From contig JAIHAN010000006.1 of the NCBI GenBank assembly GCA_020054815.1, positions 1 through 39,449 of the forward strand: 39,449 bases of DNA, given 5' to 3'. A program made the translations under genes and the position numbers. This document shows, in pieces, positions 3,884 through 34,100 of the stretch. The notes beneath the pieces are model-generated. The model was given only the letters and a program-made list of their open reading frames with translations. It had not been told where the DNA came from and did no database searches. The DNA is from Peptococcaceae bacterium. GTDB taxonomy: Bacteria > Bacillota > Peptococcia > DRI-13. The first letter of the stretch is position 1; the number at the start of each line of letters is the position of its first letter.

Positions 3884-3947
3884 TAAGTCAGACTTGCCTC
3901 TTAACAAGCAATACTTACCATAAGGTACAGCAAACCCACGTATAAAC

Positions 3948-4018
3948 AACCCGTAGTCAGGCAATTTACGGTCGCCTGGTAGAAACATTTAGACCATATT
4001 ACTAAACGTATACAGGTT
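3948..4018 (-). promoter_or_regulatory. Guanine-class purine riboswitch aptamer
   Basis: The minus-strand sequence has all parts of the purine aptamer. P1 is AACCTGT (4018-4012) paired with ACGGGTT (3954-3948). P2 carries the TAATATGG loop, the core reads GTTTCTACC, and P3 carries the CCGTAAA loop. The J3/1 segment reads GACTACG, so the specificity position equivalent to base 74 is C, which reads guanine or hypoxanthine rather than adenine. It lies about 130 bases upstream of xpt and is followed by an intrinsic terminator. Confidence 0.95.
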
Positions 4019-4069
4019 CTACGAACTATATTGGTTTTTATTGGGTATAATGTTCGTCTATTTACTTTA

Positions 4070-5767: not shown

Positions 5768-5864
5768 TGGCGGGAGCGTGTAGGAATCGAACCCACCCAG
5801 CGGAGGAGCGCTCCGCCACACTGGTTTTGAAGACCAGGCGCACCACCAGGCACAATCCGCTCCC
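5768..5864 (-). tRNA. selC: tRNA-Sec, anticodon UCA
   Basis: The 97-base gene reads UGA as selenocysteine. The anticodon loop is CTTCAAA, anticodon TCA, on a CTGGT/ACCAG stem. It has a long variable arm with a 6-bp stem (GCGGAG/CTCCGC), an extended acceptor stem (GGGAGCG paired with CGCTCCC), a T arm GTGGG-TTCGATT-CCTAC, and an encoded G-CCA end. The eighth acceptor pair would be G-A, a mismatch. It lies 60 bases downstream of selB, its dedicated elongation factor. The size, long variable arm and UCA anticodon exclude an ordinary serine tRNA or suppressor. Confidence 0.96.
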
Positions 5865-9956: not shown

Positions 9957-10045
9957 GATCTTCACCTCCGTAAATTTCTCACGTCTTATTATTCGTGAAG
10001 TGAGGAATTGTTATACTCCGGAGGCACCATAATCTCCGTGTAAAC

Positions 10046-19326: not shown

Positions 19327-19342
19327 TGTTCCACGTGAAACA
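19327..19342. promoter_or_regulatory. parS: parS-like ParB-binding site, one mismatch
   Basis: TGTTCCACGTGAAACA differs from the parS consensus TGTTTCACGTGAAACA at one base. It lies in the parB-hndA gap, about 65 bases upstream of the hnd -35 element. Confidence 0.75.
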
Positions 19343-19529
19343 AATATTTCCTTCTTTTCATGTTCTAGGTTTCACAATTTTATTCCCTAGGTATCTCTAT
19401 CATACCACGTTTCCTGCAGCACCCCAAGCCGGAAAATAATGTAGATTATGAGTTTTTAGATTATTAGCTGTAATTAATATCATTTCTCTTTTCAACTTTT
19501 TTATTTATAAGGGTCGTATATGGGTCTTA

Positions 19530-19545
19530 AGTGATATTTATCACT
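19530..19545. repeat. Perfect 7-bp inverted repeat beside the parS palindrome
   Basis: AGTGATA and TATCACT are exact arms around TT, four bases from the left end of the 48-bp palindrome. Apart from the parS sites and the promoter elements, the rest of the gap 19116-19657 shows nothing else that I can name. Confidence 0.35.
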
Positions 19546-19549
19546 AATA

Positions 19550-19597
19550 TAATATTAATAGGGAATGTTTCACGTGAAACATTCCCTATTAATATTA
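19550..19597. promoter_or_regulatory. parS: Consensus parS in a 48-bp perfect palindrome after parB
   Basis: The 16-bp consensus parS, TGTTTCACGTGAAACA, lies at 19566-19581. The dyad continues without a mismatch through ATTCCCTATTAATATTA on each side to 24 bases per arm. It lies 60 bases past the parB stop. As RNA it would form a very stable hairpin that could protect or end the parAB transcript, though no clean U tract follows. Confidence 0.95.
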
Positions 19598-19657
19598 ACA
19601 CAAAAAGGTGATTTTACTCTCGAGATGTTAGAAACCGGGTGTGGGAGGACCCAAAAA

Positions 19658-20536
19658 TTAAATATTTTCTCCTTGCAGTACCAGGGCTACAATTCTTTCG
19701 AGATCGTCGGTACTATAGTAATCAATTTCTATTTTTCCTCTTTCCCCCTGGTCCTTAATTTTAACTTTGGTACCAAAAAGACTCCTTAATTTGGCCTCAA
19801 TATCCAGCATAATGGGGGAAAGCTTGTTGTCTTTCTCGATTTTTTCTTCTTTTGCCTTTTTGTTTTCCTCTTCTACGGCCCGCCTGACCAGACTCTCTGT
19901 TTCCCGTACGGACAGATTTTTATCACATACTTCCTGGGCAATGGCTATTTGCAGTTCCTCGCCGTTAAGAGCCAGCAAGGGACGAGCATGTCCCACCGTC
20001 AACTGTCCCGCAGATAATTTGTCCAGAATAGGATCGGGCAGGTTAAGGAGTCTTACCATATTAGCAATAAAAGACCTGCTTTTGGAGATCTTCTGTGAAA
20101 CTTGCTCCTGGGTAAGTTTGAATTCTTCCATGAGGCGTTTATAAGCCACCGCTTCTTCCACAGGATTAAGATCTTGCCTCTGTATATTTTCCACCAGGGC
20201 TATTTCCATCATCTGTCCATCGCTGAATTCCTTAACTACAGCAGGTATCTTCACCAGACCTAAACGCTGGCAAGCCCTTAATCTTCTTTCCCCTACTACC
20301 AGTTCGTATTTTCCTGGACCCACAGGCCTCACTACCACAGGCTGTACTACACCGTGTTCCTTAATGGACTCCGCCAGTTCATTTAATTTTTCTTCATCAA
20401 ATCTTCTCCGGGGTTGAAAAGAGTTAGGCCTGATCTTATGTATTTCAATCTCCATTACAGGTTCATCAGAAGATACCAATTCAGGTGAACTGGGTATAAG
20501 GGCTGAAAGTCCTTTTCCCAAACCTTTTTTATTCAC
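19658..20536 (-). CDS. parB: Chromosome partitioning protein ParB (Spo0J)
   Basis: ParB is a CTP-dependent DNA clamp that loads at parS and recruits SMC to the origin. The 292-residue length is typical. The N-terminal MNKKGLGKGLSALIP is the classic ParA-interacting peptide. The nucleotide-binding segments VVGERRLRAC and ENIQRQDLNPVEEA are followed by the parS-reading helix-turn-helix (LTQEQVSQKISKSRSFIAN), and the C-terminal part is the dimer domain. The GTG start lies inside the end of parA (8-base overlap), with AAGAGGTGA as ribosome binding site. Three parS-type sites are within 2.3 kb. Confidence 0.97.
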   Translation of the reverse strand: MNKKGLGKGLSALIPSSPELVSSDEPVMEIEIHKIRPNSFQPRRRFDEEKLNELAESIKEHGVVQPVVVRPVGPGKYELVVGERRLRACQRLGLVKIPAVVKEFSDGQMMEIALVENIQRQDLNPVEEAVAYKRLMEEFKLTQEQVSQKISKSRSFIANMVRLLNLPDPILDKLSAGQLTVGHARPLLALNGEELQIAIAQEVCDKNLSVRETESLVRRAVEEENKKAKEEKIEKDNKLSPIMLDIEAKLRSLFGTKVKIKDQGERGKIEIDYYSTDDLERIVALVLQGENI

Positions 20537-21290
20537 GTTCGATCACCTCTTTCGCAAGCTCTTGGTACTGTTCAGCTCCTTTGGACTTGGGATCATAAAG
20601 AATAATAGGCATGCCGTGGCTGGGCGCCTCACTGAGACGTACATTTCGCGGGATAATAGAACTAAACATTTTTAGTTCCGGGCGGGCTTTAACCTCATCT
20701 ACCACCTGTATGGACAAATTTGTACGGGCGTCAAACATGGTTAAAACTGTTCCCTCAATTTTCAATTCTGGATTTAGGTGTTTTTTTACCAAAATGATGG
20801 TATTCATTAACTGGCTTAAACCTTCCAGAGCATAATACTCACACTGAATGGGAATAAGCACACTGTCAGCCGCTGTCATGGCATTAAGCGTCAATAAACC
20901 CAGAGAGGGGGGACAATCAATGATAATAAATTCATAATCATCTTTGATAGGGGCAATAGCTTTTTTTAGTTTCATTTCCCTGGAGATGGCGGAAACCAAC
21001 TCCACTTCAGCGCCTGCCAGCTGTATGGTAGCCGGTGCGACAAAAAGATTATCTACCTGAGTTGAGAGAATGATGCTCTTCATTGGCATGCCATTAATAA
21101 GACAATCATAAATACAACGGCCCGTGCTGGTCTTGTTGATACCCAGTCCACTAGTGGCATTACCCTGGGGGTCAACATCGATGATAAGCACTTTTTTGCC
21201 TAATGAAGCAAGACAAGCACCAAGGTTGATGGCTGTAGTTGTTTTAGCCACACCACCTTTTTGATTGGCAATAACAAGAACCTTACCCAT
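20529..21290 (-). CDS. parA: Chromosome partitioning ATPase ParA (Soj)
   Basis: This is a 253-residue Walker-type ATPase with the deviant P-loop KGGVAKTT (11-18), the VDPQGNATSGLG switch, and IIDCPPSLGLL as Walker B region. It works with ParB in origin segregation and, in Bacillus, also acts on DnaA. ATG start with AGAGGTG ribosome binding site. Its upstream region (21291-21842) is unusual: it holds a possible small gene or structured RNA, a LexA-like operator on a TATAAT promoter, and a hairpin repeat element. This gene is probably transcribed from that promoter unless a closer one exists. Confidence 0.97.
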   Translation of the reverse strand: MGKVLVIANQKGGVAKTTTAINLGACLASLGKKVLIIDVDPQGNATSGLGINKTSTGRCIYDCLINGMPMKSIILSTQVDNLFVAPATIQLAGAEVELVSAISREMKLKKAIAPIKDDYEFIIIDCPPSLGLLTLNAMTAADSVLIPIQCEYYALEGLSQLMNTIILVKKHLNPELKIEGTVLTMFDARTNLSIQVVDEVKARPELKMFSSIIPRNVRLSEAPSHGMPIILYDPKSKGAEQYQELAKEVIERE

Positions 21291-21547: not shown

Positions 21548-21768
21548 GTCGCTACCCGTTACCCGATCCCCGCTACGTTTTAAATGTTAACTGCAAACTA
21601 AGTTCCGATTTCCGACTGCCGACATCTGAGTAACGATTATCAACCGCCAATATCCGACTACCGACTCCGATAGTAATAGCAAATACTCCAAAGATAATAC
21701 ACATAAATCGGATATCGGAAAACGGATATCGGATGTCGGGAAGGAGGTGGCGGAAAGCGGGAAGCGTC
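21548..21768. repeat. Hairpin repeat element, copy A
   Basis: The element begins GTCGCTACCCG and ends CGGGAAGCGTC, imperfect terminal inverted repeats shared with copy B at 25541-25629. The interior is rich in CCGAYT-type words on the left and their complements (CGGATATCGGA) on the right, so the whole segment can fold. It has no coding frame. It lies in the noc-parA gap and looks like a small non-autonomous mobile or REP-type element. Confidence 0.6.
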
Positions 21769-21802
21769 CAGTAATTAATTAGACAGTAGTACAAAAGAAA
21801 GA

Positions 21803-21832
21803 GGGTAAATGTTTCACGTGAAACATTTACCC
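21803..21832. promoter_or_regulatory. parS: Consensus parS in a 30-bp perfect palindrome after noc
   Basis: Consensus parS TGTTTCACGTGAAACA lies at 21810-21825 and is extended symmetrically by GGGTAAA/TTTACCC. It begins 10 bases past the noc stop, and on the minus strand is followed by TCTTTCTTTTG, so it also looks like an intrinsic terminator for noc. Confidence 0.95.
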
Positions 21833-21842
21833 CGCGGTTCCT

Positions 21843-22694
21843 TTAATTTTTTATTTTAGGAATTTGAATAACCACTTCAATGTAGTCTTCATGGTTTTTT
21901 TCGGTCATTTTGGCGGCAAGACCCGCTTCTTGGATGGTGGTGACTGCCGTACGTATAGTGTTGAGATAAATCCGCATATCCTTAAAGATACGGACAATTT
22001 TTTGTCCTCTTTCCGTGTTTGTGTTGGCTATATTCTTATCTTCAAGAATTTTTTCCACTAAAGCATCGGTTTCCCTTACATTCAGTTCTTTCTCATATAT
22101 TTCTTTTAAGGCTGCCAGCTGTGTAGCGGCATCAGGGAGTTTCAGCAAGGCCCGGGCATGCCTTTCAGTAATCACTTCTGTAGAGATATTCTTTCTTACC
22201 ATCTCGGGAAGCTTCAATAATCTCAATTTGTTGGCAATGGTGGACTGGCTCTTGCCGACTCTTTTAGCTATTTCTTCCTGAGTGAGACCGAAATCCTGTA
22301 TTAACCGGTGATAACCTTCGGCTTCTTCAAAAAAGTTGAGGTCTTCTCTTTGAAGATTTTCAATTAATGCCATTTCGGCAATTTCCCGGTCGCTTAAGTC
22401 CCGGATAATAGCAGGGATGGTTTTCTTACCGATACTTTGGGAAGCGCGCAGACGTCTTTCCCCGGCCACCAATTCATAATGGTTGTCCACACGCCGGACA
22501 ATAATGGGCTGAATCACACCGTATTCCTTAATGGACTTGGCCAGATCTTCTAACTGGACTGGATCAAAAATTTTGCGGGGTTGAAAGGGATTGGCCTTTA
22601 TACTGGAAATACTGATCTCCCGCACCTGATCATTTTTTTCTTCTATATGATTACTATTAATTCCGAGAAGTTTTGTAAGAGATTCTCTCACCAC
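21843..22694 (-). CDS. noc: Nucleoid occlusion protein Noc
   Basis: This 283-residue ParB paralogue is a CTP-dependent clamp that blocks division over the nucleoid. It shares the ParB core (LVAGERRLRAS, ENLQREDLNFFEEA, the helix-turn-helix LTQEEIAKRVGKSQSTIAN). It is assigned to Noc by its place after rsmG, by the C-terminal pattern NTIRTAVTTIQEAG then DYIEVVIQIPK, and by the N-terminus MVRESLTKLLGI, which could be the amphipathic membrane-targeting helix. GTG start with AAAGGGGG ribosome binding site. Whether it binds its own sites or parS cannot be told; no Bacillus-type Noc site is seen. Confidence 0.9.
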   Translation of the reverse strand: MVRESLTKLLGINSNHIEEKNDQVREISISSIKANPFQPRKIFDPVQLEDLAKSIKEYGVIQPIIVRRVDNHYELVAGERRLRASQSIGKKTIPAIIRDLSDREIAEMALIENLQREDLNFFEEAEGYHRLIQDFGLTQEEIAKRVGKSQSTIANKLRLLKLPEMVRKNISTEVITERHARALLKLPDAATQLAALKEIYEKELNVRETDALVEKILEDKNIANTNTERGQKIVRIFKDMRIYLNTIRTAVTTIQEAGLAAKMTEKNHEDYIEVVIQIPKIKN

Positions 22695-33800: not shown

Positions 33801-34073
33801 GTGTTTCTACATTTGGGCGGGGATACTTCTGTTTACCTAAGAGAAGTAGTAGGGATTTTTGATCTTGATTCCACAAAAGAAAGTTCAGCCACCAAGGAGT
33901 TTTTGGAAATTGCCAAGGATGAAGGACTAATCTGCGTGGTTGGTACAGAGGATAAAATTAAAAGTTTTATCATTACCAAGGAAAAGGTATATTACTCTCC
34001 GATTTCTTCTATAACTTTACAAAAGCGGGCTTTAAATATGCTAGATCTCGAAGACGAAATAGAGGAACAATAA
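33801..34073 (+). CDS. remB: Extracellular matrix regulator RemB (YaaB, DUF370)
   Basis: This 90-residue protein has FLHLGGDTSVYLREVVGIFDLD and the later SPISSITLQKRA typical of RemB/YaaB. The family is related to RemA, a DNA-binding regulator of biofilm genes; RemB function is less clear. GTG start directly after the recF stop, with AGGAGG upstream. It lies in its usual place between recF and gyrB and is closed by a terminator. Confidence 0.92.
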   Translation: MFLHLGGDTSVYLREVVGIFDLDSTKESSATKEFLEIAKDEGLICVVGTEDKIKSFIITKEKVYYSPISSITLQKRALNMLDLEDEIEEQ

Positions 34074-34100
34074 AAACTTGGCGCAAGCCAAGTTTTTATT
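34072..34100 (+). terminator. Terminator of the dnaN-recF-remB operon
   Basis: AAAAACTTGGC pairs exactly with GCCAAGTTTTT around GCAA, then TATTT. It overlaps the remB stop codon. Confidence 0.92.

Follow-up and report, generated by a model that had tools for sequence, protein, structure and literature searches.

Long palindromic arms at parS sites as candidate composites of a centromere site and an RNA 3'-end hairpin in Bacillota

Why parS, commonly regarded as a site that acts purely as DNA and described as a bare 16 bp, should form the centre of much longer perfect palindromes is the question raised by the parAB locus in the stretch of 39,449 nucleotides analyzed here (the window).

The parS sites of the window and their expected ligand

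The mnmG, rsmG, noc, parA, and parB genes lie on the minus strand of the window. parB (spo0J; 19658-20536) encodes a protein with ParB_N, HTH_ParB, and ParB_C domains, parA (soj) occupies 20529-21290, and noc (21843-22694) encodes a second ParB-like protein. The parS consensus TGTTNCACGTGAAACA is matched exactly at 19566-19581 (TGTTTCACGTGAAACA) and, on the noc side, at 21810-21825. The first core is the centre of a 48-bp perfect palindrome (19550-19597) downstream of parB, and the second of a 30-bp perfect palindrome (21803-21832) directly past the noc stop. These are the only two perfect palindromes with arms longer than 10 nt in the 39.4-kb window, and each contains parS. A third parS with one mismatch (TGTTCCACGTGAAACA; 19327-19342) has the core only and lies between parB and a nuoE-like gene. 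The noc-side palindrome and the one-mismatch site were absent from the original prediction, which concerned the 48-bp palindrome. When up to two mismatches were allowed, the 2.7-Mb genome, in an assembly of 177 contigs that is 81% complete, contained three parS sites only, all within a span of at most 2.5 kb around parAB.

This locus resembles the chromosomal parABS system of the Bacillus subtilis Soj/Spo0J type, with its dispersed parS, in the exact core, in the position of parAB beside rsmG and mnmG, and in the parS-type specificity residues of ParB. It differs from the usual parABS in that each exact parS core is centred within a longer palindrome, of 30 or 48 bp, at a gene 3' end. At the positions that determine parS or NBS specificity in ParB and Noc, as defined in PMC7383237, the ParB translation carries R and G of the R173/G201 type (KSRSFIAN..TVGHAR, read by eye), and the Noc translation, aligned with solved Noc chains, carries Q, K, K, and R (GKSQSTIANKLRLLK...ITERHAR). 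The genome holds 23 NBS-like sites, compared with 1 for a reversed control pattern. The residues of both proteins and the NBS count together indicate that ParB is the expected ligand of both parS palindromes, and Noc would be expected to target NBS sites, not parS. Noc as the default binder of the noc-side palindrome was ruled out on the same grounds. The noc gene with its QKKR set and the NBS-like sites scattered through the genome are those of a Noc/NBS nucleoid occlusion system; the palindromes differ from it in containing parS and not NBS, so Noc is not their expected ligand. The few NBS sites that were looked at had no extended arms. We infer that ParB binds long-armed parS sites in vivo.

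The two palindromes as predicted RNA hairpins

On the noc side, 17 bp separate the noc stop from the parS core. The palindrome has 15-nt arms with a GC-rich base and is adjoined by a T-rich tail (TCTTTCTTTTGT; 21791-21802, minus strand). Its stem (GGGUAAAUGUUUC/GAAACAUUUACCC) has 14 pairs, 5 of them GC, and a loop of 4, with a predicted folding energy of -17.4 kcal/mol for the hairpin and -20.5 kcal/mol for the element with its flank on the noc strand. Thus, a stable stem with a short loop and a T-rich tract are both present at 21803-21832 in the noc sense, and a terminator scan found the element terminator-like on the minus strand, with a moderate tail score of 3.0. Judged by these features, the noc-side element would be the clear case in the window of a parS built into a terminator. 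The gap between noc and parA also contains degenerate repeats of the TCCGATATCCG / CGGATATCGG type (21570-21740).

The 48-bp palindrome lies 60 bp downstream of the parB stop. About 540 bp separate parB from the nuoE-like gene, and as parB occupies 19658-20536 on the minus strand, the palindrome is in this gap and outside the gene. Its arms (19550-19573 and 19574-19597) of 24 nt each are 100% complementary with a spacer of 0 nt around an exact core, as the original prediction had described. Given the core and the composition of the window, the chance of 16 extra matched pairs per arm is about 2.7e-10. The palindrome could form an RNA hairpin on either strand. For the parAB mRNA, in which a hairpin had been claimed, the predicted fold has -29 kcal/mol, a z score of -8.7, 22 pairs, and the loop ACGU. 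The sequence that follows on the parAB strand (TATTAGTGATAA) has a longest T run of 2, so a T-rich tract directly past the stem is lacking there. The terminator scan did not call the 48-bp element on the parAB strand and found no other terminators in the parB-nuoE gap, and no Rfam families were found at the palindrome. The parB-side element is among the longest by arm length, yet a poor terminator. The adjoining stretch at 19530-19545 (AGTGATATTTATCACT) contains a short dyad whose GTGA-N6-TCAC spacing resembles that of a CRP/FNR-family operator. Other features of the window are a purine riboswitch (3934-4035, minus strand), a selenocysteine tRNA (5772-5864, minus strand), and a strong symmetric hairpin at 34069-34100 (AATAAAAACTTGGCGCAAGCCAAGTTTTTATT), which is probably a bidirectional terminator.

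Both elements share with intrinsic (Rho-independent) terminators a GC-containing stem, a 4-nt loop, and nearness to a stop codon, and the noc side also shares the T-rich tail. They differ from such terminators in that the upper stem and loop would be a fixed protein-binding site and in that the parB-side copy has no T run.

A sister genome (one other genome of the genus) has a parB that is 98.4% identical in DNA. The noc palindrome is kept there with a 16-nt arm (L085). At the parB end (L084), the sister has a bare parS core without long arms and a shorter and different spacer. Lack of arm conservation beyond the core in relatives, which the original prediction had named as evidence against a double role, was thus found at parB and not at noc. 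The flanks of the parB-end core are partly common to both genomes. In the window, the outer right arm looks copied from the left flank shared with the sister (ATATAATATTA), and the inner left arm from the right flank that both genomes have; in this two-genome comparison without an outgroup, gain and loss of the arms look alike. The parB-nuoE spacer (19350-19657) differs almost completely from that of the sister in length and sequence, and the stretches on either side are 94-98% identical. An insertion or mobile origin of this spacer of about 270 bp was rejected, as the only match in its own genome was the spacer itself and plasmids gave none. A phage origin was also rejected because the 26-bp extended core is absent from viral contigs. 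Genomes of the class matched short pieces of the spacer only, nearly all centred on the palindrome. The spacer was kept as lineage-specific.

Long arms and terminator likeness across Bacillota

The survey of parS sites drew on 80 ParB relatives and on genomes of the class and of the phylum. Most of a second sample was taken from another class, supplemented by some additional sites in phylum genomes that had been sampled before. Before counting, we excluded near-duplicate contexts as well as one genus in which parS is amplified. A gene-end site was defined as an exact core lying at most 150 bp from the 3' end of a gene, and left and right flanks taken from different sites served as a flank-swap control (300 shuffles). 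Gene calls were mechanical, many of the genomes are MAGs, related genomes do not represent independent events, and the thresholds for arm length and terminators were our own choice. At least five extra pairs beyond the core were found in 33/119 gene-end sites, compared with 1.1 expected from flank swapping (largest of the 300 shuffles, 5), and at least seven in 25/119, compared with 0.15 expected. The second sample gave 12/28 sites with at least seven extra pairs, compared with 0.28 expected. Among intergenic sites not close to a gene end, 12/66 were long-armed, and among sites within ORFs, 4/71; both counts exceed their controls, at frequencies below that of gene ends. Most parS sites extend little beyond the core, and approximately 60% of the gene-end sites have fewer than three extra pairs. 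The long-armed share depends on the upstream gene, with 12/23 at noc ends, 5/12 at rsmG ends, and 9/48 at parB ends. Among orthologous rsmG-end sites of one genus, both arms change together (GGCAA/TTGCC to GGACAA/TTGTCC).

Terminator likeness was examined in 121 gene-end sites with a single transcription direction. A sense-strand hairpin with a T tail centred on parS was found in 21/31 long-armed and 2/74 short-armed sites, a contrast that is partly built in, since longer arms lower the folding energy by construction. The antisense strand had terminator form in 14/31 long-armed sites, and sense-only calls outnumbered antisense-only calls by 14 to 4 (p 0.03), a modest excess. A separate terminator was present nearby in only 4/31 long-armed sites, compared with 37/74 short-armed sites (Fisher p 0.0004), and this scarcity is the cleanest argument for composites. 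From +6 to +14, the T content is 52-61% for long-armed sites, compared with 19-38% for short-armed sites, and C is enriched at +3 to +6 in long-armed sites. The strand bias of T content just past the arm was not significant (p 0.59), so this T content was not counted as support. Textbook-like composites are seen after rsmG and noc and also after other genes (L204, AAAAAAAGGCAA-parS-TTGCCTTTTTT; L208, L229, L235, L263, L138, L143, and L068).

Plasmid centromeres downstream of parB-type genes, such as RA3 parS after orf11, likewise lie at the 3' end of a partition operon. In RA3, a terminator follows orf11 (PMC7414963); the portions of that paper covered here contain no statement that the terminator hairpin is parS itself. 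A search for parS with terminator, hairpin, or palindrome, mostly outside subscription journals, found no description of such a composite.

Amplified parS copies were also seen. In one genus of the same class (g28; G035-G042; L113-L129, L181-L199), a genome has up to 69 exact parS cores (G041). One dispersed repeat (TTTGGTTAATAACTA-parS-ATTTTGTTTGYRATGYTCCATCGTCGGGAGACTGTTTGTTGCC...) accounts for 26 of the copies sampled, a pattern that looks like capture and spread of parS by a small repeat. In G590 (family f38; L281-L295), many of the 52 cores belong to another dispersed repeat (TTTTCAGGTTATGTTCGTT-parS) and some form inverted pairs close together, apparently a further spread of parS that was independent of the first. 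G594 has 19 cores. The parAB locus of G041 (L180:1-12501) carries 11 parS in 8 kb, with long arms at 2242, 2486, 8421, and 10012. Two of its copies (2233-2271 and 10003-10041) match at 97% over 39 bp, which suggests that the whole palindrome was duplicated. The site at L180:10012 is inside the reading frame that encodes a copper-type P-ATPase.

Origin and role of the arms

The best explanation of the long arms, with a probability of roughly 0.55, is that parS and a 3'-end hairpin form a composite element. The 16-bp core would be the ParB loading site and the top of an RNA hairpin with the loop ACGU, and GC-containing arms would extend this core to a full stem, giving the upstream gene either an intrinsic terminator or a hairpin that protects its 3' end. 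parS, already a palindrome, is half a hairpin and may have been built repeatedly into the terminators of adjoining genes. RNA polymerase would stop at these elements. Mutation may build the arms first, and selection may then retain those that end transcripts. Such composites look real in Bacillota as far as sequence features can tell. The double role of segregation site and transcript end that had been proposed for 19550-19597 thus fits a recurrent arrangement and suits the noc-side palindrome well, but the parB-side palindrome makes a weak case for it. The hairpin there is the stronger of the two and is followed only by an AU-rich tail, and our best guess is that it acts as a weak terminator or as a 3'-end stabiliser that blocks 3' exonucleases on the parAB mRNA.

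A mutational origin is a serious though rather unlikely alternative. Here, the selected parS core would seed replication hairpins, in which template switching copies one arm to the other, leaving a functionless by-product that was only sometimes co-opted as a terminator later. Template switching has been documented as creating and keeping RNA hairpins in the parts of PMC8794818 covered here. Some long-armed parS sites are unable to be terminators, which keeps this alternative alive. It explains better than the terminator reading the arms away from gene ends and inside ORFs, such as the P-type ATPase site, and the long GC-containing arms without T tails at several sites of one genus (L230-L232), and it agrees with the resemblance of the right outer and left inner arms of the window to flanks shared with the sister. 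It does not predict the T-rich tails, the few separate terminators, or the concentration after noc. In the same DNA, non-parS palindromes of 16 bp or longer extend by at least five pairs less often than parS does (4/50 compared with 58/336), although these numbers are small.

A role at the DNA level, in which a longer dyad, perhaps a cruciform, aids ParB loading, clamp closure, or bridging independently of RNA, appears improbable. Long arms do occur at many parS sites, at gene ends and elsewhere, and AT-rich outer arms like those at the parB side could extrude under supercoiling. However, arm sequences vary between sites, which excludes sequence-specific contact, the published ParB-parS structure contains a 20-bp duplex (PMC7383237), and most parS sites manage with little beyond the core. 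Fold-back chimeras can make palindromes, and the assembly of this genome is fragmented, yet an artefact or chance is very improbable even for this one locus. The probability of the 48-bp arms by chance is about 3e-10, the two sides run into different unique sequence, and similar palindromes occur in many independent genomes, so that neither is left as a general explanation.

The composite reading leads to a wider and more tentative proposal, which falls somewhat short of even odds: centromere sites of Bacillota would have been fused repeatedly with terminators, and the RNA of the upstream operon would end where the ParB clamp loads. If true, segregation would be coupled to transcription, with ParB as a regulated roadblock or with termination shielding the clamps from read-through. 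Should many parS sites double as terminators, gene expression and not only segregation would shape the position, number, and flanks of these sites, and changes of the flanks in parS experiments would also alter transcription. If the arms arise by template switching, parS sites would preserve a natural record of this mutation process, replicated widely among bacteria. The composites would also offer a direct route to asking how ParB clamps and RNA polymerase share 30-50 bp of DNA.
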